From assembly GCF_000766795.1 (NCBI RefSeq), contig NZ_JPDS01000003.1, forward strand, positions 372,001 through 436,000: DNA of 64,000 nt, in the 5' to 3' direction. This DNA comes from Polaribacter sp. Hel1_85. Its GTDB lineage: Bacteria > Bacteroidota > Bacteroidia > Flavobacteriales > Flavobacteriaceae. The position numbers were made by a program, and so were the translations under genes. Positions 21,853 to 46,706 of this stretch are shown piece after piece. Within the stretch, counting starts at the first letter, position 1. Each line of letters begins with the position of its first letter. Below the pieces are notes generated by a model, which searched no databases, was not told the DNA's origin, and worked only from the letters and a program-made list of their open reading frames with translations.

Positions 21853-21888
21853 AATTGTTATTTTTTATTAAGTTAATTTTATAATGTT

Positions 21889-21896: not shown

Positions 21897-21941
21897 TATA
21901 TATTATTTTAAGAATAATAAAAAAAAACGCTCTTTTTTACA

Positions 21942-21957
21942 ACTAGTAGGTACTAGT
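21942..21957. promoter_or_regulatory. Palindromic operator candidate of the galactose module
   Basis: ACTAGTA-GG-TACTAGT is a perfect 7+2+7 palindrome in the divergent region between the symporter and regulator genes. It lies just upstream of the -7 element of the regulator promoter (21979-21986), where the -33 region is expected. Its layout resembles operators of AraR-type regulators, which also join a GntR DNA-binding domain to a sugar-binding domain. Confidence 0.65.
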
Positions 21958-21978
21958 GGGTTTTTGTAATATAATTTG

Positions 21979-21986
21979 TATATTTG
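21979..21986 (+). promoter_or_regulatory. Bacteroidota -7 promoter element for the galactose regulator/gal operon
   Basis: TATATTTG matches TAnnTTTG nine bases before the ATG at 21995. The transcript would be nearly leaderless, which argues against the upstream GTG at 21956 as the start. Confidence 0.45.
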
Positions 21987-21994
21987 TAAACTAT

Positions 21995-22987: not shown

Positions 22988-22993
22988 AAAACT

Positions 22994-23884: not shown

Positions 23885-23894
23885 CGAAACTAAA

Positions 23895-25043: not shown

Positions 25044-25062
25044 TTTACTTAGAAACAAAAAA

Positions 25063-26085
25063 ATGAGCAATACAAACTTACAAGATTATTCGCACAAGCG
25101 TTTTAATATTCTTACAGGAGAATGGGTTTTAGTTTCTCCACACAGAGCAAAAAGACCTTGGCAAGGACAAAATGAAGAAGTAAATAACGAGAAAAGACCT
25201 ACACATGATCCTTCTTGTTATTTATGTGCTGGTAACACAAGAATTAATGGTGAAGTAAATCCTGATTATAAAGATGTTTTTGTTTTTACAAACGATTTTG
25301 CTGCTTTACAAAACGATTCGCCAACATTTAATGTAAATGACGGGCTTTTAAAAGCGCAAAGTGAAACAGGTATTTGTAAAGTAATTTGTTTTAGCCCAGA
25401 CCATTCAAAAAGTTTGGCAGATATGTCTGTTTCAGAAATTCAAAAAGTAGTTTTTGCTTGGCAAAAAGAATATACAGAATTATCTGAAAATCCTAAAATC
25501 AATTATGTTCAGATTTTTGAAAATAAAGGGTCAGTAATGGGTTGCAGTAATCCACATCCTCATGGACAAATCTGGAGTCAATCTTCTTTACCAAACGAAG
25601 TCGCTAAGAAAAACATGCAACAATTAAACTACTTCAACAAAAATAACAGTAGTTTATTAGGAGATTATTTAACACAAGAATTAGAAAAACAAGAACGTAT
25701 AATTTTTGAAAATGATGGTTTTGTTGTTTTAGTTCCTTTTTGGGCAATTTGGCCATTTGAAGCTATGATTATTCCCAAAAGACATTTGTCTAATATTTTA
25801 GATATGACTGAAGAAGAAACTTTACAATACTCTGAAGCAATTGCAGTTTTAACAAAGGCATATGATAAAATTTTTAATACTTCTTTCCCATATTCTAGTG
25901 GAATTCATCAAGCTCCAACAGATGGTAATGAAAATAAACACTGGCATTGGCACATGAGTTTTTATCCACCATTATTAAGAAGTGCTTCTGTTAAGAAATT
26001 TATGGTTGGTTATGAAATGTTTGGTACTCCACAAAGAGATATTACTGCAGAACAAGCTGTAAAAATGATAAAAGACTGTTTGTAA
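25063..26085 (+). CDS. galT: UDP-glucose--hexose-1-phosphate uridylyltransferase
   Basis: 340 residues. It shows the zinc-binding Cys pair in SCYLCAGNTRING, the active-site CSNPHPHGQIWSQSS with the nucleophilic His of the His-Pro-His triad, and the late HWHWHMSFYPP motif. It exchanges UMP between UDP-glucose and galactose 1-phosphate. It ends the operon regulator-galM-galK-galT; a strong terminator hairpin follows. A UDP-glucose 4-epimerase gene is not in the window. Confidence 0.97.
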   Translation: MSNTNLQDYSHKRFNILTGEWVLVSPHRAKRPWQGQNEEVNNEKRPTHDPSCYLCAGNTRINGEVNPDYKDVFVFTNDFAALQNDSPTFNVNDGLLKAQSETGICKVICFSPDHSKSLADMSVSEIQKVVFAWQKEYTELSENPKINYVQIFENKGSVMGCSNPHPHGQIWSQSSLPNEVAKKNMQQLNYFNKNNSSLLGDYLTQELEKQERIIFENDGFVVLVPFWAIWPFEAMIIPKRHLSNILDMTEEETLQYSEAIAVLTKAYDKIFNTSFPYSSGIHQAPTDGNENKHWHWHMSFYPPLLRSASVKKFMVGYEMFGTPQRDITAEQAVKMIKDCL

Positions 26086-26256: not shown

Positions 26257-27750
26257 TTAATCAACATTTAAAAAAGTTTCTTGACTAAAAGTAAAAACAT
26301 CAGAAGGTGTTCTTGCTTCTTGAAAAAGAGATTCAATTTGTTTGACAACTTTAGGAAACTGTGCTGCAACATTATTTTCCTCACCAATATCATTTGAAAG
26401 GTTATAAAGTTGCATTGGCTTATTTGGTGTTTTTAAAACATTGTATTTTACTGCTTTCCAAGCACCCATTCTAATAGCCTGTCTACCTCCTTTTTCATGA
26501 AACTCCCAATATAAATAAGCATGTTTTTTTTGATTTTTATCATCCCCTAATAGTTCTGGTAAAAATGATATACCATCAATATTGTCAGGAACTTCAACAC
26601 CTGAAATACTTGCAAAAGTTGGAAAAACATCCCAAAAAGCAGAAATATGATTTGATTTGCTTCCAGCTTTTATTTTTCCTGGCCATTTTGCAATCATAGG
26701 TACTCTAATACCACCTTCATACAAATCTCTTTTAGTTCCTCTTAAATTTCCATTACTATTAAAGTATTTAGGATCTGCACCACCTTCTTTATGTGGTCCA
26801 TTGTCTGAAGTGAAAATAATTATAGTGTTATCCGCTATTCCAAGTTCAGTTACTTTAGCCATAATTTCCCCAACCTGTTGATCTAATAAATCTATCATAG
26901 CAGCAAATGCAGCATGAGATTCATTTTGAGATGCATAAGATCCTTTTCTATATTTAGGGCCATCATCAACACCTATAAATTTTTTCTCTGGCAAAAATTT
27001 ATTTCTATATTTTGTCATTAATTCTTCCGGAGCTGCAAGTTCTGCATGAGGAATAATTGACGCAACGTATGCGAAAAATGGTTTTGATTTGTTTTTTTCA
27101 ATAAATTGTAACGTTTTATCATGAATTAAACTTGGGGCATATTCTTTTTTTGATAACCCAGAATTTCCATTTAAAACAATAGAATCTTTATTAGACCATA
27201 AATGATCAGGATAATAATGGTGTCCTAAACGTTGACAGTTATAACCGTAGAACTCATCAAAACCTTGACTTATTGGATCACCTTCAGACCCAGGAAAACC
27301 AAGCCCCCATTTACCAAAAGCTCCAGTTGTATAACCCGCTTTTTTCAATACTTCTGCTAATGTATACGTATCATCTGGAATAGGATATTGACCTTCTGGT
27401 TGAATTTCTTTATTACCTCTAACTACAGTGTGCCCTGTATGCATCCCTGTAAGCAACGCTGACCTTGAAGGCGCACAAACAGTGCTCCCCGAATAATATT
27501 GAGAAAACAACATACCCTGTGTAGCAAGCCTATCTATATTAGGTGTTTTAAATTTTTCTTGTCCATAACAACTTAGATCTCCATAACCTAGATCATCTGC
27601 AAGAATATATATAATATTTGGCTGTTGCTTTTTAACCAAACCTTGACTTATTGCTGTAGAGCTACTCTTCTTTTTTTTACTTAAAAAATTACACGAGACA
27701 AAGAGTATAGCTGAAGCTATAAGTATTATAGGTAAAGAAAATTTAAACAT
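26257..27750 (-). CDS. Arylsulfatase-type (S1) lipoprotein sulfatase
   Basis: 497 residues with a lipoprotein signal (cleavage before Cys20, LFVSCNF). The sulfatase fold starts PNIIYILADDLGYGDLSCYG with the metal-binding Asp pair. The CxPSR site TVCAPSRSALLTGMHTGH has the Cys that is converted to formylglycine, and IIFTSDNGPHKEGG gives the second metal site. It should remove sulfate esters from carbohydrate in the periplasm. It diverges from the hybrid two-component regulator gene across a 445-base regulatory region and belongs functionally to the polysaccharide locus. Confidence 0.93.
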   Translation of the reverse strand: MFKFSLPIILIASAILFVSCNFLSKKKKSSSTAISQGLVKKQQPNIIYILADDLGYGDLSCYGQEKFKTPNIDRLATQGMLFSQYYSGSTVCAPSRSALLTGMHTGHTVVRGNKEIQPEGQYPIPDDTYTLAEVLKKAGYTTGAFGKWGLGFPGSEGDPISQGFDEFYGYNCQRLGHHYYPDHLWSNKDSIVLNGNSGLSKKEYAPSLIHDKTLQFIEKNKSKPFFAYVASIIPHAELAAPEELMTKYRNKFLPEKKFIGVDDGPKYRKGSYASQNESHAAFAAMIDLLDQQVGEIMAKVTELGIADNTIIIFTSDNGPHKEGGADPKYFNSNGNLRGTKRDLYEGGIRVPMIAKWPGKIKAGSKSNHISAFWDVFPTFASISGVEVPDNIDGISFLPELLGDDKNQKKHAYLYWEFHEKGGRQAIRMGAWKAVKYNVLKTPNKPMQLYNLSNDIGEENNVAAQFPKVVKQIESLFQEARTPSDVFTFSQETFLNVD

Positions 27751-28195: not shown

Positions 28196-31100
28196 ATGAT
28201 GCAACAAATATTTTTTAGCAATAAAATTTATATATCCGTTTTTATTTTCATACTAAGTTGTACTTGTATTTACTCACAATCAGACAAAACATATTTTCAT
28301 GAACTAGAAATACAAGGTGTCCCTTTTAACAAAAAAGTAAACACATTATTTGTAGACAGCTTCGGGTACCTATGGATTGGAAGTGATACAGGTTTATATA
28401 GATACGATGGAAACAACTTAATTTCATATCAATTAGATGCATTTGATCCACATTCTATACCTAATAATAGTATTAATTCTATTATTGAAGATGATAATAA
28501 AGACTTATGGATTGGAAGTGAAAGTTATTTAATCCATTTTAATAGAAAAGAGAAAAAATTTAAGTGGTTCTACAAAAACATTACTTCTGTTGTATTAAAC
28601 AAGACTGCTAATGGTAACATTTGGGCTAACTTGAGAAATACAGGCTTGGTAGAAATAAAACCTAGTAAAGACTCTGAAAATGTTAATTTTGACACCCAAT
28701 TTAATTATACAGATAATTCAAATTTAATTAAATTTAAGAGGCAAATTAATTCTTTTGTAGAAGATAGTTTTGGAAGACATTGGTTAGGAACTCCAAGGGG
28801 AATTCTAATATTAAACAGCAAAAAGGAATACATTCAAACTAATTTCACAAAAAACATTAAATCAATAAAGCCTTATGAAAATAATAAGATTATAGCATTA
28901 ACTGAAAAAGGTCTTTATATTTTAGGTTACAATAAATCAGATTTTAAAGTTGAGGTTTTAGAGTATTATGATGAATTTATTAAGTCTATCCCATCAAAAT
29001 CAATATCAACTTCATTAACAATAGACTTAAAAAGTAATAATATTTGGGTAGGAACAACTGGAGGATTGTTTAAAGCAATTAGAAAAAATAATACTTATGA
29101 TTTTGTCTCCTTTACAAAAGGAACTTCAAAAGGAGATTTAAAGAGCAATCATATTAGCACCTCTACATTTGACTCAAATGGAAACCTATGGATTGGCTCC
29201 TTAAAAGGAGTAAACAAAAACATAGACAGAACTTCTATATTTAATTACAAAGAGTTAAAAACAACTAATAATAATGAAAATTTTAGTGCAAAAAGAATTT
29301 TTTATCATTCAGAAAACACTATTTTAATTGCAATGAATGATGGTCTCTACAGCTATAATCCAAAATTAAATGATTATTCCAAAATAAAAACTAAACTTAA
29401 AAACATCAGTCATATTTCATATAATTTTGAAAAAAACAAACTTATGTTTTCAAGTGGGACTGTTTTGTATACAACAGAAACTTCTATAAATAAGAAAAAA
29501 ATACAGTTTACTAAAATAAAAAAGTTTAAAAACATAATAACAGACATAGCAATAGTTAGTAAAAATGAAACTTGGGTTGGACTATGGAATGGTGGTATAA
29601 AAATTATTAATTCAAAAAACCAATTATCAAAATTCAAAAAAGGAGTAGAAAAAAAGCTTGCAAATAATCATACATCTACTTTACTTTTTACAGAGGAAAA
29701 TAAATTGTGGATTGGTACTCGTGGAGAGGGGCTTTTTAAGATTGATTTTAATAATGAATCAATAGAAGAATACTTACCAACAATAAAAAACGGATTAACA
29801 TCAAATGCAATCTTAAGCTTACACGAAGATCGTAAAGGAAATATTTGGATAGGAACTAGAGGAGGAGGATTAAACAAGTATGACAAAAAATCAAACAACT
29901 TTAAAAACTTTGGAAAAGCAAACGGGTTAATCTCAAATACAATCTCTGCTATAGAAGAAGATAAAAATGAAAATTTATGGTTGAGTTCTCAAAATGGGTT
30001 AATTCATTTTGATTTAAAAAATGAAAGATTTAGAAATTTCGGTATAGAAGACGGTATAAAAGAGAGTCAATTTGTGTATAATTCTAGCTCGTCAAACACA
30101 TTACAAAATAACATATATTTTGGTTGCCCTGGTGGGTTTTATACTGTTTTTACAGATAAATTCTCTAAAAACACTAAAACTCCCACAACAGTTATAACTA
30201 GCTTTACTACTCTAGGTGCAACAAAAGCGGATCAAACAAACTCAGCATTAAACTCATCTACAGATATTAATATTGACTCAAAAAAAGCAATTACTTTACC
30301 ATACAAGCAAAATAATATTGTAGTTAATTTTTCTTCATTAGACCTAACTTCACCAATCAAAAATGAATATGCTTATAAATTAGAAGGCTTAAACAATTAT
30401 TGGGTTTATACAAATGCAACAAATAGAAATGCAAATTATAACGACCTTTCTCCAGGTTCATATACTTTTAAAGTAAAGAGCTCTAATAGTGATGGTGTTT
30501 GGAATGAGGCTCCTAAAGAATTAAAATTCACTATTAAACCTCCTTTTTGGAGAAGTAATTTGGCGTACTTTGGTTATTTTGTTATTTCAATAATTTTACT
30601 ATTCATAGGTGCAATTTTAATTAGAAGATGGTATCGTTTAAAAAAGAATTTAGTAACAGAGACAATTAGTAGAGAAAAGGACAATGAACATAATAGAATG
30701 AAAATGGTCTTTTTTACCGATATTTCTCATGAATTAAGAACTCCTCTTTCTTTAATTTTTGGAACGATTGAAAAAGTTATAAAAGAAAAAGATTTCACAT
30801 TAAACCCAATAACTTCTCAACGTATTTATAACAACACTCTTAGAATGAGAAGGCTGATAAATCAAATAATGGATATCCGAAAATTTGATGGAGGAAAATT
30901 TAAACTAAGAATCACTAAAAATGATATTGTTAAAGACATAGACATTATAAAAAATGCCTTTAATGATTTTGCTAAAATGTCTAATATTAAATACGATTTC
31001 ATCACTAAAGAACAAAAAATAAAAGGTTGGTATGATGTTGATATCTTAGAAAAAATACTCTTTAATTTATTATCTAATGCTTTTAAATATACGCCTGAAA

Positions 31101-32302
31101 AAGGAAAAATAAGTGTTAATTTAGAATTAGTGGTGGTTAATGTAAAGAATTCTAAAAACCTCAAATTAGAACAAGGAACTTATATTAAGTGTTCTGTTAG
31201 AGATAATGGTATTGGTATACCAGAAAAAGATTTACCTTTTATTTTTGATAGATATTATCAAGCAACAAAAACTTCTGGAAATAATATCCCCGGAACAGGA
31301 ATTGGTATGGAATTAGTTCAAAAACTTATTGAAAGACATCACGGTATAATTTCTGTTGAAAGTGAAGAAAACTCATATACCAAATTCACTTTTATACTTC
31401 CAATAGACAAAAATAAATATAGTGAAGATGAACGTTTTGAAATATCTGAACCACTTAAAAAGAACTTCATTAAAAATTCAGAATTCCAAGTTATAGAGGA
31501 AGTTTCTTTAGCACATGATGCTAAAGCCAAAACAAATAAAAATAAACCTAAAGTTTTAATTGTAGAAGACAATCCTGATTTAAGACAAATGTTAAAAGAC
31601 GAATTGGAAAACAACTTTTATGTTAAAGAAGCTTCTAATGGAAAAGAAGGGTATGATGCAGTTGTAAAAGAAAAACCACAGCTTATAATTAGTGATATAT
31701 TAATGCCTATTGAAGATGGAATATCAATGCTAAAACGTATCAAGAAAAACCCAGAGATAAACAAAGTTCCAATATTTATGCTTACAGCTAAAAACTCTGA
31801 GGAAACAAAAATTGAGTGTTTAAGCTTAGGAGCAGATGATTATATAGAAAAACCATTTAGTCTAGAATTTGTAAAATGGAAAATTAAAAATGTATTAACT
31901 TCTAGAAAACTGCTTAAAGAAAAATATAGCAAGCAAATTAATATTGAACCTTCTGAAATTGAAGTTGATTCAAATAACGATAAATTCATTCGTAAATTGG
32001 TAACGATTATAGAAAACTCAATGAATGACAATCTATTAAGTGTAGAATTCCTTGCATCTGAAGTAGGAATGAGCAGAGCTAATTTGTATAGAAAACTACA
32101 AACTATTTTAAATGACACACCTGTAAATTTCATCAAAAAGATCAGGTTAAAACGTGCAGAACAACTCTTAAAGAAAAACGAACTTTATCTATCTGAAATA
32201 GCTTACATGACAGGTTTTAACAATCAAAAATATTTTGGAAAGTGTTTTCAAAAAGAATACGGAATGAGTCCAACAGAATATATAAAAAAACACACAATTT
32301 AA
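28196..32302 (+). CDS. Hybrid two-component system sensor/regulator (HTCS) of the polysaccharide locus
   Basis: 1368 residues, the standard HTCS plan in one chain. A signal peptide is followed by a periplasmic sensor of Reg_prop beta-propeller repeats (YLWIGSDTGLYRYDG and many WIG-type repeats to about 660), a Y_Y_Y domain (about 690-780), and a membrane helix at about 790-812. The kinase has His near 845 in DISHELRTPLSL, the N box NLLSNAFKYTPEKG and G boxes DNGIGIPEKDLPF and GTGIGMELVQ. A receiver domain (about 1117-1235, Asp in ISDILMP) and an AraC-type DNA-binding domain (about 1265-1368) follow. It should sense an oligosaccharide in the periplasm and activate the surrounding genes. A sulfatase gene starts ten bases after it. 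Confidence 0.96.
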   Translation: MMQQIFFSNKIYISVFIFILSCTCIYSQSDKTYFHELEIQGVPFNKKVNTLFVDSFGYLWIGSDTGLYRYDGNNLISYQLDAFDPHSIPNNSINSIIEDDNKDLWIGSESYLIHFNRKEKKFKWFYKNITSVVLNKTANGNIWANLRNTGLVEIKPSKDSENVNFDTQFNYTDNSNLIKFKRQINSFVEDSFGRHWLGTPRGILILNSKKEYIQTNFTKNIKSIKPYENNKIIALTEKGLYILGYNKSDFKVEVLEYYDEFIKSIPSKSISTSLTIDLKSNNIWVGTTGGLFKAIRKNNTYDFVSFTKGTSKGDLKSNHISTSTFDSNGNLWIGSLKGVNKNIDRTSIFNYKELKTTNNNENFSAKRIFYHSENTILIAMNDGLYSYNPKLNDYSKIKTKLKNISHISYNFEKNKLMFSSGTVLYTTETSINKKKIQFTKIKKFKNIITDIAIVSKNETWVGLWNGGIKIINSKNQLSKFKKGVEKKLANNHTSTLLFTEENKLWIGTRGEGLFKIDFNNESIEEYLPTIKNGLTSNAILSLHEDRKGNIWIGTRGGGLNKYDKKSNNFKNFGKANGLISNTISAIEEDKNENLWLSSQNGLIHFDLKNERFRNFGIEDGIKESQFVYNSSSSNTLQNNIYFGCPGGFYTVFTDKFSKNTKTPTTVITSFTTLGATKADQTNSALNSSTDINIDSKKAITLPYKQNNIVVNFSSLDLTSPIKNEYAYKLEGLNNYWVYTNATNRNANYNDLSPGSYTFKVKSSNSDGVWNEAPKELKFTIKPPFWRSNLAYFGYFVISIILLFIGAILIRRWYRLKKNLVTETISREKDNEHNRMKMVFFTDISHELRTPLSLIFGTIEKVIKEKDFTLNPITSQRIYNNTLRMRRLINQIMDIRKFDGGKFKLRITKNDIVKDIDIIKNAFNDFAKMSNIKYDFITKEQKIKGWYDVDILEKILFNLLSNAFKYTPEKGKISVNLELVVVNVKNSKNLKLEQGTYIKCSVRDNGIGIPEKDLPFIFDRYYQATKTSGNNIPGTGIGMELVQKLIERHHGIISVESEENSYTKFTFILPIDKNKYSEDERFEISEPLKKNFIKNSEFQVIEEVSLAHDAKAKTNKNKPKVLIVEDNPDLRQMLKDELENNFYVKEASNGKEGYDAVVKEKPQLIISDILMPIEDGISMLKRIKKNPEINKVPIFMLTAKNSEETKIECLSLGADDYIEKPFSLEFVKWKIKNVLTSRKLLKEKYSKQINIEPSEIEVDSNNDKFIRKLVTIIENSMNDNLLSVEFLASEVGMSRANLYRKLQTILNDTPVNFIKKIRLKRAEQLLKKNELYLSEIAYMTGFNNQKYFGKCFQKEYGMSPTEYIKKHTI

Positions 32303-36525: not shown

Positions 36526-37611
36526 CTAATATTTTAACACATAATTATTTGTACCATCACTACCATCTAAAGCCACTCCACTAGGGCAATAAAGATATTC
36601 AGGTTCATTATTTGCATCCATTAATAACTGAGGTCTTTCTAACTTCACCTTTTTACCTCCGTAACGTACATTCGCTTCTCTTGGAAAATTGCCTTTCAAA
36701 TAAAAATCTTGATAATTATGAAAACCTGATAAAGGTTCGGCGTTAAATTGAAGTCCATCTTCTGATACCCAAAGTAAACCACCACCTTTTTCTAATATTC
36801 CATGATTGTCTGTAGTCATTAAGCATATTTTATTTCTCCATAAAAAAGCATTCCCATCTTCTATTCTGACTTCATTAGTAGTAATTGGGTCTGGTTGGAT
36901 AACATACGGTCCTTCTAACTTGCTAGAGATAGCAACTCCCATACTCACTTTGCCTTTAGTACCAGATTTCGCTTTAAAATACAAAAGGTATTTTCCATTA
37001 GGATGTTTTATCAAACTAGGGTTGTTAACACCAAGTCCACTGTTTGCACACCAAATAGCAGTATCGCTAGGAGGGCTAAGTAAAGGTGTGTTCTCATTAG
37101 GAACTGCATTCCATGGTCCATGAATACTATTACTTGTTAGCATTCCAATTCGCTGACTTGGTCCATGTTTTTTTGCGCCATCATTAGCTATAAAAACTAA
37201 AACGTATTTATGGTCTATTTTTTTAATACTTGGATTGTGAAAACCAGCAGCATTCCATGTATCATTACCTTTTCCTTTTGCTACAACTTCTACAAATTGA
37301 AACGGTCCTTCAGGTTCTTTTGATACATAATGTGCAATTTCACTATTGTAACGCCATGCTTTTTTAAACGGTGTTTCTGAAGACCATCTTGCAGAAAAAA
37401 GATGAACATTACCTTGCTCATCTCTTATTGGAGAGCTTCCCCAAACGTCATAACCAGGTTCATTGATTGCTTCACCAACAAACTTCCATTGATCAGACAT
37501 GGCAGTTGGAGAGGCTACTTGTTTTATTGCTTCTTTTCTATTATTTTTTTGTGATTGACAAGAAACAATAAATATTGAAAGCAGAATGGTGCTTACTATT
37601 ATTTTTTTCAT
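36526..37611 (-). CDS. Five-bladed beta-propeller glycoside hydrolase-like lipoprotein (GH43/32-like)
   Basis: 361 residues with a lipoprotein signal (ILLSIFIVSCQSQ). The mature protein has blade motifs YDVWGSSPIRDEQGNVHLFS, FHNPSIKKIDHKYVLVF, VNNPSLIKHPNGKYLLYF and RIEDGNAFLWRNKICLM, the WGSSP/HNP/NPS/EDG pattern of five-bladed propeller glycosidases (clan F/J-like). Acidic residues in these motifs are the likely catalytic set. It is homologous to the protein at 54426-55475 and to the C-terminal half of the protein at 46904-48724, so this subfamily was expanded in the locus. I cannot assign it to a numbered family; substrate is unknown. Confidence 0.75.
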   Translation of the reverse strand: MKKIIVSTILLSIFIVSCQSQKNNRKEAIKQVASPTAMSDQWKFVGEAINEPGYDVWGSSPIRDEQGNVHLFSARWSSETPFKKAWRYNSEIAHYVSKEPEGPFQFVEVVAKGKGNDTWNAAGFHNPSIKKIDHKYVLVFIANDGAKKHGPSQRIGMLTSNSIHGPWNAVPNENTPLLSPPSDTAIWCANSGLGVNNPSLIKHPNGKYLLYFKAKSGTKGKVSMGVAISSKLEGPYVIQPDPITTNEVRIEDGNAFLWRNKICLMTTDNHGILEKGGGLLWVSEDGLQFNAEPLSGFHNYQDFYLKGNFPREANVRYGGKKVKLERPQLLMDANNEPEYLYCPSGVALDGSDGTNNYVLKY

Positions 37612-37666: not shown

Positions 37667-39325
37667 TTATTCTGTTATCTTAAATGAAACATGGGTAAAT
37701 GAACCTGTTGTTATGTCTATAAGAAATTGATTTTCTTCTATAGGTTTTATAACAAAAGATTCTCCTTCAGGTTGATCATCATCATCCCATTGTGTTACAG
37801 TTATATTACCATCAATTTTAAAACCATCTAGAATCCCTACAGGGTATTCTTCGTAAAAAGGTGGTATAAAAGTTTTACATGGACTCACAGTGTTAATAAA
37901 AAACACATTTACTTCGTTACCTCTTATATAGGCTCTACTATGAAGCTTCTCCCTACTTAGTACTTCTTCACCATCATGATCTAACATTCTTATAGGTTGT
38001 GAACCAATCAAAGCTTCAGTATATGCTCTGGTAATATAATTCCATGGAGCATTACCTCCAGATAGAGGGTAATCCCACCAGCTTACTAAATCTAATCCAA
38101 GATCAGTCCAATCAAACATACATCCAATAGCAAGTTCAGAAGTCCAAATTTCTCTATCTTTATTGTGGTCAGCACTACATCTAAGAGCATCCCAATGCGC
38201 TTCAGTAGCCCAAGCTTCACGATGTTTATCACTTTGAGCTAGTTCATATTCGTATTTTAAATCTGGATGATTAGTTGTATTATGATGATTCAAATAATAA
38301 TGATTTCCAAATACGTCATAGCTATCTTGTCCATTAATATTGTATAAATCATCAAAAGATCCAGCTTGCCCCAATGGTTTATAGAATTCTGGAGCCACAA
38401 TTTGTGGTACCACATAACCAAGTCTTGCTGTTCTTGCTCTTAATGTATCAACAGCTATCGTAAAATCTGTAACATCCATTCTAGCAGCCTCTTTATCAAA
38501 AGCAACATAGTTTACTTCGTGTCCATGTTCATGCATAAACTCAACATAGTCAACAATCAATTGTGCATATTTTATAGGATTAGGCACAGTTGGCGCCTCT
38601 GTTGTTACCCAATCAGGAAAATACTCAGCTTTGTCTGATGTTAAAACTTTTAAACCTAAAAAAATCATAAAAGGTTCCGTACCATAATAAGATGCTTTAG
38701 CATTTTCTATAGATGTTAAAAGAGTTGTGTAAACACTTTCTACCACCTCGCCTTCTGCAGGATGTCCTCCATAGGCATCACCACAATATAATGGAACTCT
38801 AAGACCATTCATTTTAGCTTGACCTTCACCTTGACCAAAAGCTAATTCTGCATTACTGATATTACCTAAAGTTCCAGCGTTATGATTTAAATCTAACATA
38901 TGGTGTTTTGTAACCCTCCCAAATTTTTCAAGTGGGGATATGGTTGCTTTATTTACATATGTTGCCTCTTCATAATCAACAATTTCCACAGTGTAATCTT
39001 CAAAACCTTCACTAGAATGAAGTCTAAATTTTTCTGTAATGCTCCATTGACCAATTCTTGTATTTGGATTTGGAGTTATTATTGAAACATCATCTGAATA
39101 TTTATAAGTAACAGACGTAATTTCTAACGGATCTTTTACATCGGGTAAGGATATCATTTTAGTATCATTATCTATAACTCCAATAGATTTTTCTCCAGAT
39201 AATAATGTTACATCAAATTGAGTGAAATTCAATTCAATGTTGTCTATTTCCTCATTGTCTGATTCAGGTTTACTACAGTTTACAAATAGTAAAATCATGA
39301 TGATTAACAGATAAATTTTTCTCAT
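37667..39325 (-). CDS. Putative TIM-barrel glycoside hydrolase lipoprotein, tandem paralog 3 of 3
   Basis: 552 residues with a lipoprotein signal (IILLFVNCSKPE-like N-terminus, Cys17). Residues about 30-115 form an Ig-like N-terminal domain (DDVSIITPNPNTRIGQWSIT). The rest looks like a clan GH-A TIM barrel plus C-terminal beta-sandwich: NGLRVPLYCGDAYGGHP, EPFMIFLGLKVL, NYVAFDKEAARM, DVFGNHYYL, WATEAHWDAL and LVSWWDYPLSGG. The Glu of FDKE and the Glu of WATE are placed like an acid/base on strand 4 and a nucleophile on strand 7. It is the most divergent of three tandem copies. I do not recognise an established family; a GH86/GH30-like enzyme is possible. Inferred role: endo-acting cleavage of the target polysaccharide. 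Confidence 0.6.
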   Translation of the reverse strand: MRKIYLLIIMILLFVNCSKPESDNEEIDNIELNFTQFDVTLLSGEKSIGVIDNDTKMISLPDVKDPLEITSVTYKYSDDVSIITPNPNTRIGQWSITEKFRLHSSEGFEDYTVEIVDYEEATYVNKATISPLEKFGRVTKHHMLDLNHNAGTLGNISNAELAFGQGEGQAKMNGLRVPLYCGDAYGGHPAEGEVVESVYTTLLTSIENAKASYYGTEPFMIFLGLKVLTSDKAEYFPDWVTTEAPTVPNPIKYAQLIVDYVEFMHEHGHEVNYVAFDKEAARMDVTDFTIAVDTLRARTARLGYVVPQIVAPEFYKPLGQAGSFDDLYNINGQDSYDVFGNHYYLNHHNTTNHPDLKYEYELAQSDKHREAWATEAHWDALRCSADHNKDREIWTSELAIGCMFDWTDLGLDLVSWWDYPLSGGNAPWNYITRAYTEALIGSQPIRMLDHDGEEVLSREKLHSRAYIRGNEVNVFFINTVSPCKTFIPPFYEEYPVGILDGFKIDGNITVTQWDDDDQPEGESFVIKPIEENQFLIDITTGSFTHVSFKITE

Positions 39326-39336
39326 TATATAGTGAG

Positions 39337-40989
39337 TTATTGTACTATTTTAAATGTAAGTTGAGTTACAGAACCTGTAGGCATATCAATAAGTAGTTGA
39401 TTATCTTCTACAGGTTTTATAACACTATACTCTCCTTCAATACTAGTATCATAGTCTGTATTTTCATCATTAATACTCTCTCTCCATTGCCTTGAAGTTA
39501 CATTCCCATCAATTTTAAACGAATCAAGAATACCTATAGCGTAATCTTCATAAGACATCGGTACTAAACCTGCAGTGTTGGGGTTTATAACGTTAAGTAA
39601 AAACACATTTACTTCGTTACCTCTTAAATAAGCTCTTGTATGAAGTTTACCTTGAGTTAAGGTACTTTCGCCATCATGGTCAATCATTCTAATAGGGGTA
39701 GATCTATGAATAGCATCTGAAAATGCTCTCATAACATGATGTCTAAATTTAGAACCTCCTGATATTGGATAATCCCACCACATAAATGCTTCCATTCCAA
39801 GATCTGCATGATCAAACATTATTCCAAGTGCAGACTCTGCAGAAAAAAGGTCACCATCACCATTCCAATGTGGTTCTGTAGCCCATGCCGGACGTGTTTT
39901 ATCCTTTTGTGAAAGGTCAAATTCATATTTGTATTTGGCAAAACCTTCTTCATTATGATCTCTTTGATAATAGTGATTTCCAAAAACATCATATCTGTCT
40001 TGATACCCTTTATCATATAGTTCATTCATCCAACCATTATTAGTGTCTCCTTGAGGATCCAAAAGTTCTGGAGCTACAATCTTAGGCACTACATATCCTA
40101 ATCTTGCTGTTTTTGCTCTTAAACTATCTACAGCTATTTTAAAATTATCAACACTCATTCTAACTGTTTCTTTATCTATAGCAACAGCATCTATAGTATG
40201 TCCTTTTTGCCCCATAAATGTGATAAAATCAACAATTAATTGCGCATATTTATCAGGATTTGCTACATCAGATTCTTCTGTTGTAACCCAATCAGGGTAA
40301 ATTTCATCTTTATTTGATGTTAATACTTTAATTCCTAGAAAAATTATAAATGGCTCACTTCCACTATAAGCCGCTTTGGCATTAGTTAATGATATTAAAG
40401 GTCTTTCATAAACACTTTCTATTACAACACCTTCCTCTGGATGCCCACCATAAGCATCTCCACAATAAAGAGGAAACCGTATACCATTCATTCCCTTCTC
40501 TCCAAAAGCAATATTTGCAGTAGCAACATTTGATGCTTTAGTTGCATCTCCGTTAAGATCTAACATATGGTATTTTATATAAGTCCCAAATGTCTCAAGA
40601 GGTGCTATAGTTGCTTGATTTTCATATGTAGGCTCTTCATAATCTGATATTTCTACAGTGTAATCTTCAAAAGTTTCACTAGAATGAAGTCTAAATTTTT
40701 CTGTAATTTCCCATTTACCAATCCTTGTATTTGGATTTGGAGTAACTAAACTAACATCATCTGAATATTTATATGTAACAGATTTAATATTAATAGGGTC
40801 TACTATACCAGATAGAGATATGTGATTGTTAACATCATCGATAACCCCTATAGATTTCACTCCAGAGGTTAATGTTACATCAAACTGAGTAAATTTTAGA
40901 TCAGCATTGCTAATTCCTTCATTTTCTGTCTCTTTACTGCAACCTACAAATAGGAAAACGGATGTAAGTAATATATAAATTTTTTTCAT
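39337..40989 (-). CDS. Putative TIM-barrel glycoside hydrolase lipoprotein, tandem paralog 2 of 3
   Basis: 550 residues with a lipoprotein signal (LTSVFLFVGCSKE). It shares the full plan of its two neighbours: Ig-like N-terminal part with DDVSLVTPNPNTRIGKWEIT, then barrel motifs NGIRFPLYCGDAYGGHPEEG, EPFIIFLGIKVL, DAVAIDKETVRM, DVFGNHYYQRDHN, WATEPHWNGDG and FMWWDYPISGG, and a C-terminal beta-sandwich. It is clearly closer to the copy at 41010 than to that at 37667. The gap to each neighbour is 11 to 20 bases, so the three are one transcript. The predicted catalytic Glu pair is conserved. Function is inferred from fold-like motifs and context only. Confidence 0.6.
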   Translation of the reverse strand: MKKIYILLTSVFLFVGCSKETENEGISNADLKFTQFDVTLTSGVKSIGVIDDVNNHISLSGIVDPINIKSVTYKYSDDVSLVTPNPNTRIGKWEITEKFRLHSSETFEDYTVEISDYEEPTYENQATIAPLETFGTYIKYHMLDLNGDATKASNVATANIAFGEKGMNGIRFPLYCGDAYGGHPEEGVVIESVYERPLISLTNAKAAYSGSEPFIIFLGIKVLTSNKDEIYPDWVTTEESDVANPDKYAQLIVDFITFMGQKGHTIDAVAIDKETVRMSVDNFKIAVDSLRAKTARLGYVVPKIVAPELLDPQGDTNNGWMNELYDKGYQDRYDVFGNHYYQRDHNEEGFAKYKYEFDLSQKDKTRPAWATEPHWNGDGDLFSAESALGIMFDHADLGMEAFMWWDYPISGGSKFRHHVMRAFSDAIHRSTPIRMIDHDGESTLTQGKLHTRAYLRGNEVNVFLLNVINPNTAGLVPMSYEDYAIGILDSFKIDGNVTSRQWRESINDENTDYDTSIEGEYSVIKPVEDNQLLIDMPTGSVTQLTFKIVQ

Positions 40990-41009
40990 TTTTGGTTTTA
41001 TTCTTTGTT

Positions 41010-42647
41010 TTATTCTTTAATTTTAAACGTAAGCTGAGTAAAAGTACCTGTTGGTATGTCTAAGAGGAATTGTTTTTCTTCAATTGCATCTACTAAGATA
41101 ACTTCTCCTTCAACTTCTGAACCAACTACTGAATCATCTTGCCATTGTCTCACTGTTACTCTACCATCAATTTTAAAACCATCTAAAATCCCTACCGCAT
41201 AATCTTCATAAGACGCTGGTACTATACCTGCAATATTTGGATTTACAACGTTAATTAAAAACACATTTACTTCATTACCTCTTAAATAAGCTCTAGTATG
41301 AAGTTTACCATTCGTAAAAGTTTCCTCTCCATCATGATCAAGCATTCTAATTGGTATGGAACCAAGTATGGCTCCTGAGTATGATCTCATAATAGGTGAT
41401 TTTATTGTAGTACTACCCTCTATTGGATACCCCCACCACATAAATGCGTCTAATCCTAGATCTGTATGATCAAACATTACTCCAAATGCAGATTCTGTTC
41501 TAAAAATACTTGAATCATTATTCCAGTGTGGCTCTGTGGCCCACTGTGGACGTGTTCTATCACTTTGAGCTAAATCGAACTCATATTTTAATTTAGCAAA
41601 CCCCGCAACAGTATGATCTCTTTGATAATAATGATTTCCAAAAATATCATACCTGTCTTGATATCCTTTATCATATAGCTCATTCATCCAGCCATTACTA
41701 GTGTCTCCTTGAGGGTCTAAAAGCTCTGGAGCTACAATCTTAGGTACTACATATCCCAATCGTGCTGTTTTTGCTCTCAAACTATCCGCAGATATTTTAA
41801 AGTTATCAACACTCATTCTAACAGACTCCTTGTCAAACGCAATTGCATTTATTGTATGTCCTTTTTTGTCCATAAACGCTATGAAATCAACAAGTAACTG
41901 AGCATATTTATCAGGAATAATTCCATCATCATCAGTTGATACCCAGTCAGGATAATACTCATTTTTATTAGAAGTCAAAACTTTAATTCCTACAAAAATC
42001 ATAAAAGGTTCACTTCCACTATAAGCTGCCTTTGCATTTTCAAGAGATTTTAAAGGTTTTGCATAAACATCTTCTACTACTACACCTTCCTCTGGATGTC
42101 CTCCAAAAGCATCTCCACAATAAAGAGGGAATCGGATACCATTCATTTTTTGATTACTAAAAGCTTCAAAAGCAGTGCTTTCTTCTTTAGCTTTATCAGG
42201 GTCGCCATTAAGATCTAGCATATGGTATCTTACAGTAGTCCCAAAAGTTTCTAGTGGAGATATTGTTGCTTGATTTTCATATACAGGTTCCTCAAAGTCA
42301 GGAATTTCTACAGTGTAATCTTCAAAGCTTTCACTAGAGTGAAGTCTGAATTTCTCTGTAATTTCCCATTTACCTATCCTTGTATTTGGATTTGGAGTAA
42401 TGATTGAAACGTCTTCTGAGAACTTATATGAAACAGATACAATTTCTAAAGGGTCTTTTACATCATATAATGAGATGTGTTTGTTATCATTATCAATAAC
42501 TCCAATAGATTTTTCTCCGGATGATAATGTTACATCAAATTGAGTGAAATTTAATTCAATATCACTTATCCCATCATTATCGGGTTCAGCTTTGCTACAA
42601 CTTATAAAAACAAAAATGGTTATAATTAAGATGTAAATTTTATTCAT
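41010..42647 (-). CDS. Putative TIM-barrel glycoside hydrolase lipoprotein, tandem paralog 1 of 3
   Basis: 545 residues with a lipoprotein signal (ITIFVFISCSKAE). After the Ig-like domain come NGIRFPLYCGDAFGGHPEEG, EPFMIFVGIKVL, NAIAFDKESVRM with Glu at about 274, IVAPELLDPQ, DIFGNHYYQRDH, WATEPHWNNDS with Glu at about 372, and FMWWGYPIEGS. The 98-residue spacing of the two Glu fits clan GH-A acid/base and nucleophile. It is the promoter-proximal gene of the trio; the shared locus motif (site c) lies about 90-116 bases upstream. The three copies differ most in loops after the second Glu, which in such barrels shape the substrate subsites. Confidence 0.62.
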   Translation of the reverse strand: MNKIYILIITIFVFISCSKAEPDNDGISDIELNFTQFDVTLSSGEKSIGVIDNDNKHISLYDVKDPLEIVSVSYKFSEDVSIITPNPNTRIGKWEITEKFRLHSSESFEDYTVEIPDFEEPVYENQATISPLETFGTTVRYHMLDLNGDPDKAKEESTAFEAFSNQKMNGIRFPLYCGDAFGGHPEEGVVVEDVYAKPLKSLENAKAAYSGSEPFMIFVGIKVLTSNKNEYYPDWVSTDDDGIIPDKYAQLLVDFIAFMDKKGHTINAIAFDKESVRMSVDNFKISADSLRAKTARLGYVVPKIVAPELLDPQGDTSNGWMNELYDKGYQDRYDIFGNHYYQRDHTVAGFAKLKYEFDLAQSDRTRPQWATEPHWNNDSSIFRTESAFGVMFDHTDLGLDAFMWWGYPIEGSTTIKSPIMRSYSGAILGSIPIRMLDHDGEETFTNGKLHTRAYLRGNEVNVFLINVVNPNIAGIVPASYEDYAVGILDGFKIDGRVTVRQWQDDSVVGSEVEGEVILVDAIEEKQFLLDIPTGTFTQLTFKIKE

Positions 42648-42851: not shown

Positions 42852-44363
42852 CTATTCAGTTCGTGACCATATATAACTATCATTCAAAAGTTCTTTATAT
42901 CTTATTTCAAGTTCTTTGTACATACGATCAAATACTTCCGGATTTTTGAGAACCAAATCTTCTGTCTCATTAACATCTTGTTTGAGATTATACAACACAA
43001 AATCGGTTAGTACTGCTTCTTTTACAAGATTTTCATTTCCATTATGTATGTTTCTCAACTTAGGCAAATAGCCATCTTTATTTTTAAGTTGAGCCATAAT
43101 TTTCCAATCTCCATCGCGCATAGCAATCACCTGACTGTTTGTAGCATTGTAAAAACTCCACAATAATGGTTTTTCACGTTGCATATCTCCCATGTTTAAC
43201 AATTGAGTTATTGATTCTCCATCCAATGCTTTCATTGGTAAATTAGCCCCAGATAACTCTGAAAAAGTAGGTAAAAAATCTAATGCAGAAATCACTGCGT
43301 TAGAAGTTCCTACAAAAGTCTCTTTTCCTAACCAATTGATAATACAAGGGACTCTAAATCCCGCTTCATTAGTCCATAATTTCATTCCTTTTAAATTGCC
43401 CGAAGAGCCATAACTTTTGTTAGCCTTGGCGTATCTATTTAAAGTTTCTGGGCCATTATCGGAAGTAAAAATAACAAGCGTGTTCTCATCATATCCATTA
43501 CTTTTTAGATATGAGATTAGCCTTCCAACAGCAATATCTACATTTTCTACATTTGCAAAATATTCAGCTTCCTCTCTGGTAGTTGCATACTGAAGATATT
43601 TCTCTACCAGAATTTCAGGTGATTCAACAGGTTCATGTGGTTCATGAAAGGCTACCTCTAAGAAAAAAGGATTGTCTCCTTTCTTTTGTTCAAGCCAATC
43701 GATAGCTTCATCTACAACTATTTGACTACTAAAACCATCTAAAGCACCCACAACTTCACCATTTCTAATAAAGTTATTTGGGTTTTTATGTGTTGGAGAT
43801 GCATTATTATGAGTAGCAAACCAATGTTCAAAACCGAAGAAATCTGGTTGTGGCTGTTCTACAGAATTAAATAAAGAACTACCATGCCATTTTCCTACTA
43901 AACAGGTGTTATAACCAGCTGCTTTTAGGAGCCCTGGAATAGTTTCCTCTTCAGGCCGTAAATGCACAAGATCCTTTAAGTCACCTCTTTGATTTCCCCC
44001 ACCAACAATAAAATCATACACACCAGCTCTATTTGGACTTCTTCCTGTTAATAATCCTATGCGAGAAGGAGAACAAACAGGAGATGTGCTGTAAAAGTCC
44101 GTCAATTTAATACCTGAAAGTGCTAACGAATCAATATTTGGAGTTTTTATATGTGGATGCCCATAAGAGGTAAGGTCACCATATCCCAAGTCATCGCATA
44201 AAAACAGTATAATATTGGGATGCTTGGGGTTTTCTATAATAATATTCGGCTCTTCCGAATCATCGTCTATTGTATTATTTTCCACATCTGTTTCACACGA
44301 AACAAATATTGAGAAAAAGATACTTATTATAACCCTTTTGAAATAATTCATTGATATATTCAT
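42852..44363 (-). CDS. S1-family sulfatase lipoprotein
   Basis: 503 residues with a lipoprotein signal (ISIFFSIFVSCETD; the second Met, four residues in, is an equally possible start). The core has NIILFLCDDLGYGDLTSYGH, the formylglycine site PVCSPSRIGLLTGRSPNRAG and the metal site IFTSDNGPETLNR. It should remove sulfate from the polysaccharide or its oligosaccharides in the periplasm. It starts six bases after the GH95 gene stop, so sulfatase and fucosidase/galactosidase are translated from one message and probably act in sequence. Confidence 0.93.
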   Translation of the reverse strand: MNISMNYFKRVIISIFFSIFVSCETDVENNTIDDDSEEPNIIIENPKHPNIILFLCDDLGYGDLTSYGHPHIKTPNIDSLALSGIKLTDFYSTSPVCSPSRIGLLTGRSPNRAGVYDFIVGGGNQRGDLKDLVHLRPEEETIPGLLKAAGYNTCLVGKWHGSSLFNSVEQPQPDFFGFEHWFATHNNASPTHKNPNNFIRNGEVVGALDGFSSQIVVDEAIDWLEQKKGDNPFFLEVAFHEPHEPVESPEILVEKYLQYATTREEAEYFANVENVDIAVGRLISYLKSNGYDENTLVIFTSDNGPETLNRYAKANKSYGSSGNLKGMKLWTNEAGFRVPCIINWLGKETFVGTSNAVISALDFLPTFSELSGANLPMKALDGESITQLLNMGDMQREKPLLWSFYNATNSQVIAMRDGDWKIMAQLKNKDGYLPKLRNIHNGNENLVKEAVLTDFVLYNLKQDVNETEDLVLKNPEVFDRMYKELEIRYKELLNDSYIWSRTE

Positions 44364-44369
44364 ATTGGT

Positions 44370-46706
44370 TTAATAATTAAATTCTAAAACCTCTCCTTTT
44401 TTAGTATCTATTTCTTTAACGTCATTGTTATATCGTAAATTTAAAGTATTCCCCAACTTAGATTTAATAGTTAAAGTTTTCAGTTTCCCTAACTCCCAGC
44501 TCATATCAATTTCAAACCCCTTTTTAGCAACGATTCCTTTAATACTTCCCGATGCCCAAGCTGAAGGTAAAGCAGGCAATACATGTACTTCTCCATTATG
44601 ACTTTGCATTAGCATTTCTGTAATTCCAGAAACCACTCCAAAATTCCCGTCAATTTGAAAAGGAGGATGCACATCTAAAAGGTTTGGCAATGTAGATTTT
44701 CTTTGCAATGCTAAAATATTTTCATATGCTTTGTTCCCTTCTAATAAACGTGCATAAAAATTAATAATCCAAGCTCTACTCCAACCTGTATGACCACCAC
44801 CTTTAGATAATCTTCCTGCAATTGTTTTTTTAGCAGCTTCAAACAATTCAGGTGTCTTTGTTTTCGAAATTTGATTTGATGGATGTAAAGCATACAAATG
44901 TGAAATATGTCTATGTCCTGGTTCGGCTTCTTTTAGCTCTCCTACCCATTCCAATAACCTACCATCTTTACCAATTTCAAGAGGAGGCATTTGTTCTATT
45001 TTCTGTTTTAAGATAGCACTAAAATCTTGATCTATATTTAAAATTTCTGCAGCCTTGATACAATTATTAAATAATTCAAAAACAATTTCACGATCCATGG
45101 TTGGCCCCATATTCAAAGTAGCTTTTTTACCATCTTTGGTTAAAAAATTGTTTTCTGGAGAAACAGAGGGACCTGTAACTAAAAGTCCTGTTTTAGGATC
45201 TTTCACCATAAAGTCAACAAAAAACAAAGCAGCTTCTTTCATAATAGGATAGGCATATTCTTTTAAATATTCGTTATCTTCGACATATTCATAATGGGTA
45301 AATAAATGTTGACAAGCCCAGGCGGCTCCCATAGGCCACATACCATATCTTGCCTTCCCAAAAGCAGCTGTAGCGTGCCAAATACCACTGGTGTGATGTG
45401 CTACAAAACCTCTAGTATTATATGTCTTTCTTGCGGTAATACGCCCCATTTCACGTAGGTTACCAATGTATTCTAAAAATGGCTCATGGCACTCCGCTAG
45501 GTTTGCCATTTCTGCCATCCAATAATTCATTTGAACATTGATATTGGTATGATAATCTGAATTCCATGGCGGTGTAAATCCTTTTGCCCAAATTCCTTGT
45601 AAATTAGCAGGTAAAGTACCCGGTCTAGAACTACTAATTAATAAATAGCGTCCAAATTGATATTGCAATTGTGTTAAGTAATTATCTGTAGCTCCCTTTT
45701 TTACTTTTTTTAAGCGTACATCTGTAGGAAGCTCGTCTCCATGACTATCAGAAATATTAAAAGAAAGTCTGTTAAATAAAGATTGATAATCAGAAACATG
45801 TCTTTCTAATAACTCTTGATAAGAAGAGTTTGCCATTTTATTGAATGTTTTATGATTTTCCTTTTCAGGATCTAATCCGCGATAATTACTAGAAGCAACC
45901 ACTTTAATTAGGACTTCATCTGCATTGGAAATTATTAACTTTCCGTCTTTAATTTCAGAAGTTCCTCCGTTGGTTTCAAAATGAACAGTGGCATGAAATT
46001 TAACTCCATGACCATTTCCGACATGTTCAGAAAAATCAATACTATTTTCTGATAATGAAATTTTAGTTTGTTTATTTCGTTTCACCCAAGAAGAGATGTT
46101 TATTTTCCCTTGTTTATCTGCAGTGAATTTATACACCATCGCTTTATCAGAAAAACTAGAAAAATACGTTCTTGTATATTGAACATCATCATTTTTAAAC
46201 TTTGTTGTAACAACCGATTTATTAATATCTAATTCTCGCTTATAATTACTAACAGCATCTAAATCAGTAGTTTCAATAAATAAATTCGCTAACATTTGAT
46301 ACGAACTTGTTCCTGTTGGCAAACGATCTGCTAAAATTTTATCTTGTACCATTGCCTCCGCTTCCATATATTTCTTATCGAATAGCAATTTTTGTATGGC
46401 AGCAATATGTTTACCTGCATCTTTTTTGTCTCGGTTATAATCTTTACCACCTGTCCAAATAGTTTCTTCATTTAAACAAATGATTTCCTTTTTAGGCGTA
46501 CCATAAATCATGGCTCCTAAATTTCCATTTCCAATAGGAAGTCCTTGATTCCATTTAGTTGTTGGTTGGTTGAACCAAATTTTTAAAGGAGAAGTTTCTT
46601 TTACTTCTTCTGTTTGATTACAGCTAAAAAAAGTAAAAGCTATTAAGATTAAATAAGCAAACTTCTTTATAAATTTATTGTGGATTGTTATCCAATGTAT
46701 TTTCAT
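44370..46706 (-). CDS. GH95 family alpha-L-fucosidase / alpha-L-galactosidase lipoprotein
   Basis: 778 residues with a signal ending LIAFTFFSCNQ. The N-terminal beta-sandwich begins KIWFNQPTTKWNQGLPIGNG, a GH95 signature. The (alpha/alpha)6 barrel carries the residues known from Bifidobacterium AfcA: two Asn in YHTNINVQMNYW, the acid Glu in VSPENNFL and the Asp in FQIDGNFGVVSG. GH95 enzymes invert the anomeric centre and cut terminal alpha-L-fucose or alpha-L-galactose. It heads a two-gene unit with the sulfatase at 42852, has its own promoter (46764-46792), and is preceded by the best copy of the shared locus motif. Confidence 0.94.
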   Translation of the reverse strand: MKIHWITIHNKFIKKFAYLILIAFTFFSCNQTEEVKETSPLKIWFNQPTTKWNQGLPIGNGNLGAMIYGTPKKEIICLNEETIWTGGKDYNRDKKDAGKHIAAIQKLLFDKKYMEAEAMVQDKILADRLPTGTSSYQMLANLFIETTDLDAVSNYKRELDINKSVVTTKFKNDDVQYTRTYFSSFSDKAMVYKFTADKQGKINISSWVKRNKQTKISLSENSIDFSEHVGNGHGVKFHATVHFETNGGTSEIKDGKLIISNADEVLIKVVASSNYRGLDPEKENHKTFNKMANSSYQELLERHVSDYQSLFNRLSFNISDSHGDELPTDVRLKKVKKGATDNYLTQLQYQFGRYLLISSSRPGTLPANLQGIWAKGFTPPWNSDYHTNINVQMNYWMAEMANLAECHEPFLEYIGNLREMGRITARKTYNTRGFVAHHTSGIWHATAAFGKARYGMWPMGAAWACQHLFTHYEYVEDNEYLKEYAYPIMKEAALFFVDFMVKDPKTGLLVTGPSVSPENNFLTKDGKKATLNMGPTMDREIVFELFNNCIKAAEILNIDQDFSAILKQKIEQMPPLEIGKDGRLLEWVGELKEAEPGHRHISHLYALHPSNQISKTKTPELFEAAKKTIAGRLSKGGGHTGWSRAWIINFYARLLEGNKAYENILALQRKSTLPNLLDVHPPFQIDGNFGVVSGITEMLMQSHNGEVHVLPALPSAWASGSIKGIVAKKGFEIDMSWELGKLKTLTIKSKLGNTLNLRYNNDVKEIDTKKGEVLEFNY

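Follow-up and report, generated by a model that had tools for sequence, protein, structure and literature searches.

In the accessible part of one description of glycoside hydrolase family 30 (GH30, clan GH-A), the enzymes consist of a catalytic barrel with an appended beta-sandwich. An Asn upstream of the acid/base coordinates the sugar O2, Tyr and Trp at subsite -1 make conserved interactions, and loops shape the cleft (PMC13431644). Here, three adjacent genes of Polaribacter sp. Hel1_85 were compared with this family. They lie in a stretch of 64,000 nucleotides (contig NZ_JPDS01000003.1, positions 372,001 to 436,000 of the forward strand), which is referred to as a whole as the window. Copy C (41010..42647, 545 aa), copy B (39337..40989, 550 aa) and copy A (37667..39325, 552 aa) are open reading frames (ORFs) on the minus strand, so that the order of transcription is C, B, A. 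Their positions and lengths agree exactly with an earlier sequence-only reading, which had described three adjacent paralogs. The proteins are 60% (A-B), 62% (A-C) and 71-72% (B-C) identical, C being the nearest relative of B. When the 3.9 Mb genome was searched with B at E 0.001, the trio came up and no fourth copy. Computation shows a remote GH30 homology of the trio, on which a profile search of PDB sequences, profile-profile comparison and a structural model agree; it likewise shows the alignment of the catalytic pair, the rarity of the family and the make-up of its locus. The trio is probably a new GH30-like branch of retaining beta-glycosidases that are located at the surface, probably act in endo mode and have a sulfated galactose/fucose polysaccharide as their substrate.

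A profile of nine homologs, searched against PDB sequences, listed 11 entries up to E 10, of which eight were GH30-type xylanases (E 6.3e-6 to 0.013) and three were hemoglobins (E 2.2-2.3). In profile-profile comparison (hhalign) of seven family rows with seven GH30_8-like rows, 261 columns were aligned at E 1.9e-6; FDKE was matched to QNE, WATE to WMTE, and the WW of strand 8 to WW. Seven control profiles gave E 0.098 or worse with the family rows alone. These controls (GH2; three paralogs of contig piece L040, one of them scanned as Glyco_hydro_cc; GH29; GH97; one GH30_5 protein; GH95; a sulfatase) were single proteins or small groups from the compared loci and not curated family profiles. 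When two distant homologs (L016 and L017, in genomes G646 and G639; 31-33% identical) were added to the family rows, the GH30_8-like match strengthened to E 4.6e-12 over 320 columns. Four GH30_3-like rows matched the profile with the distant homologs at 1.2e-5 over 110 columns. The labels GH30_8-like, GH30_3-like and GH30_5 (L027-L029, L055-L066, L043) were given by us from similarity, only the L043 protein having been family-searched (PF14587).

The alignment used for modelling contained 28 rows from 27 different proteins; L019 and L051 are the same G789 protein, and row counts in the tree include both. The second G034 copy, the G791 family protein, L028, L057, L064, L066, L067, L071 and the L043 GH30 protein stand outside it. 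Identity of the family to the GH30-like rows, GH30_8-like ones included, is 16-19%. An earlier MAFFT alignment (A6) misplaced the nucleophile of a group of larger proteins described below, which was corrected in three MAFFT modes by adding GH30-like rows. For the family, hhalign without GH30-like rows in the query gave the same catalytic pairing as the corrected MAFFT alignment.

Copy C was modelled with AlphaFold2 from residue 124 to its end (422 residues) on the basis of the 28-row alignment. The model reached a predicted local distance difference test score (pLDDT) of 80.6 and a predicted template modelling score (pTM) of 0.81. It contains one strand (3-11), eight strand-helix units in barrel order and eight strands from residue 308. 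The model thus predicts the (beta/alpha)8 barrel of clan GH-A, also indicated by its GH-A structure matches, together with the barrel-plus-beta-sandwich layout of GH30. The best PDB matches in Foldseek were the GH30 endoxylanases 4fmv, 3kl0 and 5cxp (E about 1e-19, best 8e-20). With VIA-align, the best PDB matches gave Z 31-32 and a root-mean-square deviation (rmsd) of 2.9-3.1 over 349-356 residues (4fmv: Z 32.2, rmsd 2.9, 356 residues), and GH30 structures align over residues 2-420 of the fragment. Profiles, alignment and model therefore support what had been proposed from the sequence, namely a clan GH-A barrel with two catalytic Glu and a beta-sandwich; comparison of the prediction with GH-A structures placed GH30_8 first. 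We hold the fold and the catalytic pair with high confidence.

Clan GH-A enzymes carry the acid/base Glu at the end of strand 4 and the nucleophile Glu at the end of strand 7, and the predicted pair of C occupies these places. E274 (FDKE, 41826..41828, minus strand, as for all residues given here) aligns with the GH30 acid/base, and E372 (WATE, 41532..41534) with the nucleophile. In fragment numbering, E151 follows strand 145-147 (strand 4) and E249 lies within strand 245-250 (strand 7). By alignment, the predicted acid/base and nucleophile are E274 (IDKE, 40168..40170) and E372 (39874..39876) in B, and E279 (38489..38491) and E375 (38201..38203) in A. The spacing is 98 in B and C and 96 in A; the sequence-only reading had put the two Glu 98 apart in the first copy, which is right for C, the first transcribed, and wrong for A, the first by coordinate. 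In the numbering of the 422-residue fragment, R49, E151, H216, Y218 and E249 are invariant in 28/28 rows, as is the subsite -1 Tyr in the aligned rows. A loss of the two Glu in homologs was looked for, and both are kept in all 28 rows and in 9/9 family proteins.

The residue before the acid/base departs from GH30. At the place of the O2-binding Asn, C has K273 (41829..41831), and Lys stands there in all nine family proteins (A, B, C, two of G034, and those of G051, G791, Flavivirga and Flavicella) and in 7/7 different larger relatives. Asn is found in 11/11 GH30-like rows and in both distant homologs. The Lys suggests that the sugar at subsite -1 carries a negative group, e.g. sulfate, at or near O2. 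In the tree, L016 and L017 group with the family (100/99) and the larger group lies outside, with a long-branch warning. As the Asn-bearing distant homologs part two Lys branches on this tree, Lys either arose on two occasions, or arose a single time and was lost again a single time. A further-reaching view, which we offer as tentative, unites the trio with the larger Lys-bearing proteins in a new branch of clan GH-A next to GH30, whose Lys in place of the O2-binding Asn would read a sulfate or other anion on O2 at subsite -1. Cleavage between sulfated residues would then precede desulfation, and the three copies would read different sulfation patterns of one polysaccharide.

The same substitution would also suit degenerate GH30-like proteins that bind polysaccharide without cleaving it, as surface glycan-binding lipoproteins, since the residue altered here is one that GH30 enzymes conserve; the lipoprotein leaders and the presence of three copies are in keeping with binding proteins too. 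We regard such a role as very improbable. Both Glu and the GH-A-site Arg, His and Tyr are kept in every aligned row, and pairwise dN/dS of five ortholog pairs is 0.21-0.32, which suggests purifying selection on the family genes. In addition, the homolog in the L016 and L017 loci is one of few candidate glycosidases near SusC/SusD.

The proteins might instead be ordinary GH30 enzymes that cleave the xylan-like chains of a sulfated xylo-fuco-glucuronan and make up a diverged subfamily close to the GH30_8 glucuronoxylanases. GH30_8 xylanases are the top matches in both structure and profile searches. A GH43 whose C-terminal domain is of the xylosidase type is also encoded in the G034 locus, and a gene with the same start in the G051 locus. 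PMC6298971 names GH30 among the families that accompany GH29/GH95 in putative loci for fucose-containing sulfated polysaccharides. This explanation is nevertheless unlikely in view of the low identity to the GH30_8-like rows, the Lys for Asn and the region after strand 8. There, GH30_8 enzymes have an Arg for glucuronosyl recognition, and their KR/RR stretch after the WW falls in a gap of the family. By our own count this stretch contains XynC R272, which has a role in glucuronate binding.

All three proteins begin with a hydrophobic leader that closes with a Cys and is followed by an acidic stretch. The lipoprotein signal claimed before is thus backed by a leader running to Cys in 3/3 copies; the signal as such is our reading of the sequence. 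Residues of about 30-120 (42288..42560 in C, minus strand) resemble DUF4971 (PF16341) with 22.1 (A), 14.8 (B) and 17.2 (C) bits, all below the Pfam gathering score of 31.3, which the Flavivirga ortholog (L011) exceeds with 35.6 bits. The N-terminal domain had previously been described as Ig-like, with which the strands of a poor model (pLDDT 39.9) are at most consistent. According to the accessible text of PMC7419316, a DUF4971 domain precedes the endo-acting GH16 O-glycanase BT2824.

For comparison among the copies, the proteins were divided into five segments with bounds set by us. The roughly 60 residues between the second Glu and the beta-sandwich are the least alike in all three pairs (42%, 47% and 54% identity), and the beta-sandwich is not unusually divergent (58-66%). 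A concentration of divergence after the second Glu, as suggested before, therefore holds for the stretch up to the beta-sandwich and not for the beta-sandwich itself. Because the copies differ most behind the nucleophile and loops shape the cleft in GH30, different sub-specificities of the copies are plausible.

The divergent segment could also close the cleft, as would be expected for exo-acting or side-chain beta-glycosidases of the beta-xylosidase or beta-galactosidase type rather than backbone endo-enzymes. Several exo activities occur within GH30, as far as the available part of PMC13431644 goes, and the GH30_10 enzyme AcXbh30A, a xylobiohydrolase by the accessible part of PMC8453022, is a close structural neighbour of the C model (Z 28). 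The fold does not, for this reason, decide between endo and exo. We find exo action rather doubtful, given that the nearest structural matches are GH30_8 endoxylanases, that a lipoprotein-type leader suits a surface enzyme and that DUF4971 also precedes the endo-acting BT2824. As the xylobiohydrolase follows these endoxylanases closely, our confidence in an endo mode is low to moderate.

The sulfatase encoded at 26257..27750 (minus strand) gives a clue to the substrate. This protein and its counterpart in G646 have their best PDB matches in S1_20 enzymes (7ana/7anb and 7an1/7oqd for the window protein), the codes 7ana and 7an1 being tied to BT1622 and BT1636 in the accessible part of PMC10154620. 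In BT1636, a His recognises the axial O4 of galactose and Glu and Arg recognise O2, and BT1622 is without that Glu and Arg, as stated in the part of PMC10154612 available. Since the residues of BT1636, a 3-sulfo-galactose enzyme, seem to be present in these sulfatases, 3-sulfated galactose in the substrate is likely. The window sulfatase and both distant ones have the His (CQRLGH), Glu (GPHxEGG) and Arg (GTKRDLYEGG) at the positions that we take to correspond to those of BT1636.

On the reading as retaining beta-glycosidases, the trio would be surface lipoproteins with a GH30-like unit made of a (beta/alpha)8 barrel, in which the acid/base follows strand 4 and strand 7 bears the nucleophile, and a beta-sandwich. 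They would hydrolyse a beta-linkage by a retaining double-displacement mechanism in an early, endo attack at the cell surface on a sulfated polysaccharide with galactose and fucose (or L-galactose). Released oligosaccharides would be degraded by the sulfatases, acetylesterase-like proteins, GH95, GH97 and GH43-like enzymes of the locus, and B and C would be extra copies, probably for other decoration patterns. Surface location, activity, substrate, endo mode and the role of Lys are what we infer; our confidence is moderate for the sulfated galactose/fucose substrate and low to moderate for the role of Lys. The suggestion of the sequence-only reading that these are specialised endo-acting enzymes for the main polymer is of the same kind.

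Several results weigh against this proposal. None of the GH30 models PF02055, PF14587 and PF17189 was found at E up to 0.1 in A, B or C, and the NCBIfam XynC (GH30_8) model gave E 0.002-0.05 and 12.8-17.3 bits at a cut-off of 650. The family profile did not detect the single GH30_5 protein (E 0.14), and the four GH30_3-like rows matched the family rows at E 2e-4 over 63 columns only. With L016 and L017 added, the gap to the controls narrows (L040 Glyco_hydro_cc group 0.00076, the rest 0.066 or worse). The alignment behind the model held 11 GH30-like rows among its 28, so the model supports the sequence evidence without being independent of it, and a model from family rows alone (alignment A2) was useless at the pLDDT of 39.9 noted above. 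The strand-8 Trp has its GH30 counterpart in the WW by hhalign and was placed elsewhere by MAFFT, and the change from Asn to Lys could weaken or alter catalysis. With AcXbh30A as a close structural neighbour, the fold leaves endo and exo action undecided. The G034 and G051 loci adjoin genes of fucose and not galactose catabolism, which makes galactose uncertain as the main sugar. GH-A enzymes usually cut beta-D or alpha-L-arabino linkages, to which an alpha-fucan backbone would not fit; a reading as alpha-fucanases was therefore set aside.

The trio lies in a sulfatase-rich setting, as noted before: sulfatases make up 5/20 window proteins scanned, and the neighbours also include GH95, GH97, GH43-like and acetylesterase-like (SASA) proteins. 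The conserved upstream neighbour is a GH95 of the alpha-L-fucosidase/galactosidase type (44370..46706, minus strand, Pfam 1e-178), and the conserved downstream neighbour a GH43-like lipoprotein (36526..37611, minus strand, PF04616 36.2 bits). The order GH95, family gene(s), GH43-like is kept in the window, G034, G051 and the loci of Flavivirga (L011) and Flavicella (L012). Between GH95 and copy C, the window has a sulfatase (42852..44363, minus strand, Pfam 5e-61); no ORF of 180 aa or more lies between GH95 and the family gene in the other four loci. Pfam further identified a hybrid two-component sensor (28196..32302, plus strand) and, adjoining the locus, galactose genes for an SSF transporter, GntR regulator, aldose epimerase, galactokinase and GalT (20224..26085, listed without a strand). 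The Flavivirga locus additionally has a GH29 alpha-L-fucosidase. The G034 locus ends near an L-fucose isomerase, FGGY kinase and class II aldolase, and the G051 locus near genes with the same starts; that L-fucose isomerase is on another contig in the window genome. The G034 locus also contains a clear GH30 gene (L043:11701-13215, PF14587, 466 bits) near sulfatases, and none was seen among the window-locus proteins scanned, which cover part of the locus.

Other proteins of the surroundings were recorded. The product of 46904-48724 is an esterase fused to a GH43-like domain in the window and Flavivirga, encoded by two genes in G034 and Flavicella. A sulfatase-family protein (55520-57490) is without the [CS]x[PAT][ST]R motif carried by 9 other checked sulfatases and may have another form of the motif or be inactive. 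The product of 57715-60081 is a beta-helix protein with a match to the GH141 insertion domain of 20.6 bits, below 27; GH141 includes endo-fucanases, going by the title of a paper. Downstream of the window, the same contig carries further tandem copies. One set (L040:9227-16700) comprises three proteins that begin alike and are 711, 722 and 884 residues long, the one scanned having a Glyco_hydro_cc domain; the other (L040:5601-8922) is a pair, 550 and 552 residues long, in which F5/8 and sorting-tail domains occur.

The loci of the distant homologs are small and consist of a sensor kinase, SusC, SusD (Pfam-based in G646), a sulfatase, a 324-residue protein and the homolog. Their sensor is 55-57% identical to the product of 28196-32302 and their sulfatase 79% identical to that of 26257-27750. 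The two copies of the 324-residue protein (L046:8853-9824, minus strand; L047:9579-10550, plus strand) are 84% identical. It has no Pfam match (L046 copy), carries the motifs FNE and DSE, as a further small GH-A barrel might, and has its best PDB profile match in a beta-galactosidase at an insignificant E of 0.21.

The trio family is rare. It was found in 3/97 relatives; all three, the window's own genome among them, belong to the genus, for which 58 genomes were covered. Among 397 genomes of the taxonomic family, three (the window's own, G490 and G791) have the family proper and two the L016/L017 type. Two short peptide patterns, run against 84,980 species genomes, picked out Flavivirga aquimarina and Flavicella sediminum. 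Flavicella and G490 have identical proteins, and those of G791 and Flavivirga are 79% identical. Known carriers total six genomes, three in the genus and three others; given a narrow pattern scan and partial sampling of genomes, the family may be more widespread than this. Relatives of G646 (5/99) and G791 (7/119) yielded no family protein beyond G490 and G791, and a class-wide full-length profile search hit 2/396 genomes, one of which (G126) matched solely through the N-terminal domain. A phylum search hit 6/296 genomes, five with weak, partial-barrel matches (E 1e-6 to 9e-4); the three matches from family f5 read as GH30-like. The wider profile A6 hit 21/397 genomes of the taxonomic family, the added ones being mostly weak GH30-like matches. 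Two N-terminal-domain patterns detected no relative among viral contigs, and PADLOC found nothing on copy C.

A is the common, widely shared type, with relatives 79-92% identical in G034, G051, Flavivirga and Flavicella. The C type has a 94% identical ortholog in G034, which also has an A-type copy, and B, of which no ortholog was seen in G034, is seen only in the window genome. Between genera, dS of A-type genes is 0.28-0.39, about the same as for the same-genus G051 copy (0.33), which suggests lateral transfer.

By its predicted site the trio works like GH30, yet it departs from it in two tests, as no curated model recognises it at its cut-off and the Asn is gone. The catalytic part matched no Pfam model at E 0.1 except for a sub-cut-off ComJ match (E 0.075) at the C-terminus of C, so that a strong match to a non-enzymatic family did not occur for it in Pfam and NCBIfam. 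No tested model assigns the proteins, as the sequence-only reading anticipated in calling them a candidate new family, but they have remote relatives in GH30 and are not free-standing. Subfamilies of GH30 share over about 30% identity within and under about 28% between them, following the rule in the accessible part of PMC8453022. With 33-34% to L016 and L017 and 16-19% to GH30-like rows, the trio could by this rule be either a new subfamily or a family of its own, and so would rank as a new subfamily at the least. The family is named in no title of a PMC open-literature search that covered titles and abstract starts, CAZy, subscription journals and supplements lying outside its scope. If the proposal is true, the GH30 neighbourhood would gain an unclassified branch with a change in a sugar-holding residue that is retained in GH30 enzymes. 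How sulfated sugars may be accepted by a glycosidase where it cleaves could then be tested simply, and a candidate endo-enzyme for a sulfated marine polysaccharide would be at hand.

Among described enzymes, GH59 galactocerebrosidase also belongs to clan GH-A and matches the C model less well (VIA Z 24) than GH30_8. Membership of GH59 was rejected: only L016 passes the Pfam threshold, by 0.7 (27.7 vs 27 bits), and L017 and the window proteins have no GH59 match. The GH30_5 endo-beta-1,6-galactanases (Sa16Gal30A; 24td) have the same barrel-plus-sandwich architecture, as described in the accessible part of PMC13431644. They act on galactose substrates, and the G034 locus holds the PF14587 gene; 24td was matched weakly by the 28-row profile (E 5e-6), and the family profile missed one GH30_5-like protein.

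The larger Flavobacteriaceae proteins (L018, L019/L051, L020, L022, L023, L032, L033) are unannotated ORFs of 686-1175 residues with a GH30-like barrel, F5/8-type modules and often CBM6, and have KE and DDE/NDE at the catalytic positions. They share with the family the Lys before the acid/base Glu and lie on its side of a 100/100 branch that parts the GH30-like rows (midpoint-rooted tree, with the long-branch warning). They differ by an identity of 17-20% and by extra modules (CBM6 in 3/4 and F5/8-type in 4/4 scanned, a sorting tail being clear in L023). The GH30_8 glucuronoxylanases (CpXyn30A 4fmv, XynC 3gtn/3kl0, CtXyn30A) have the same fold, beta-sandwich and both catalytic Glu positions as the trio family, and the same strand-6 His/Tyr and strand-8 Trp. 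Compared with them, the trio is only 14-16% identical over structural alignments, has Lys for Asn before the acid/base, is without the KR/RR motif after strand 8, and combines an N-terminal DUF4971-like domain with a sulfatase-rich locus.

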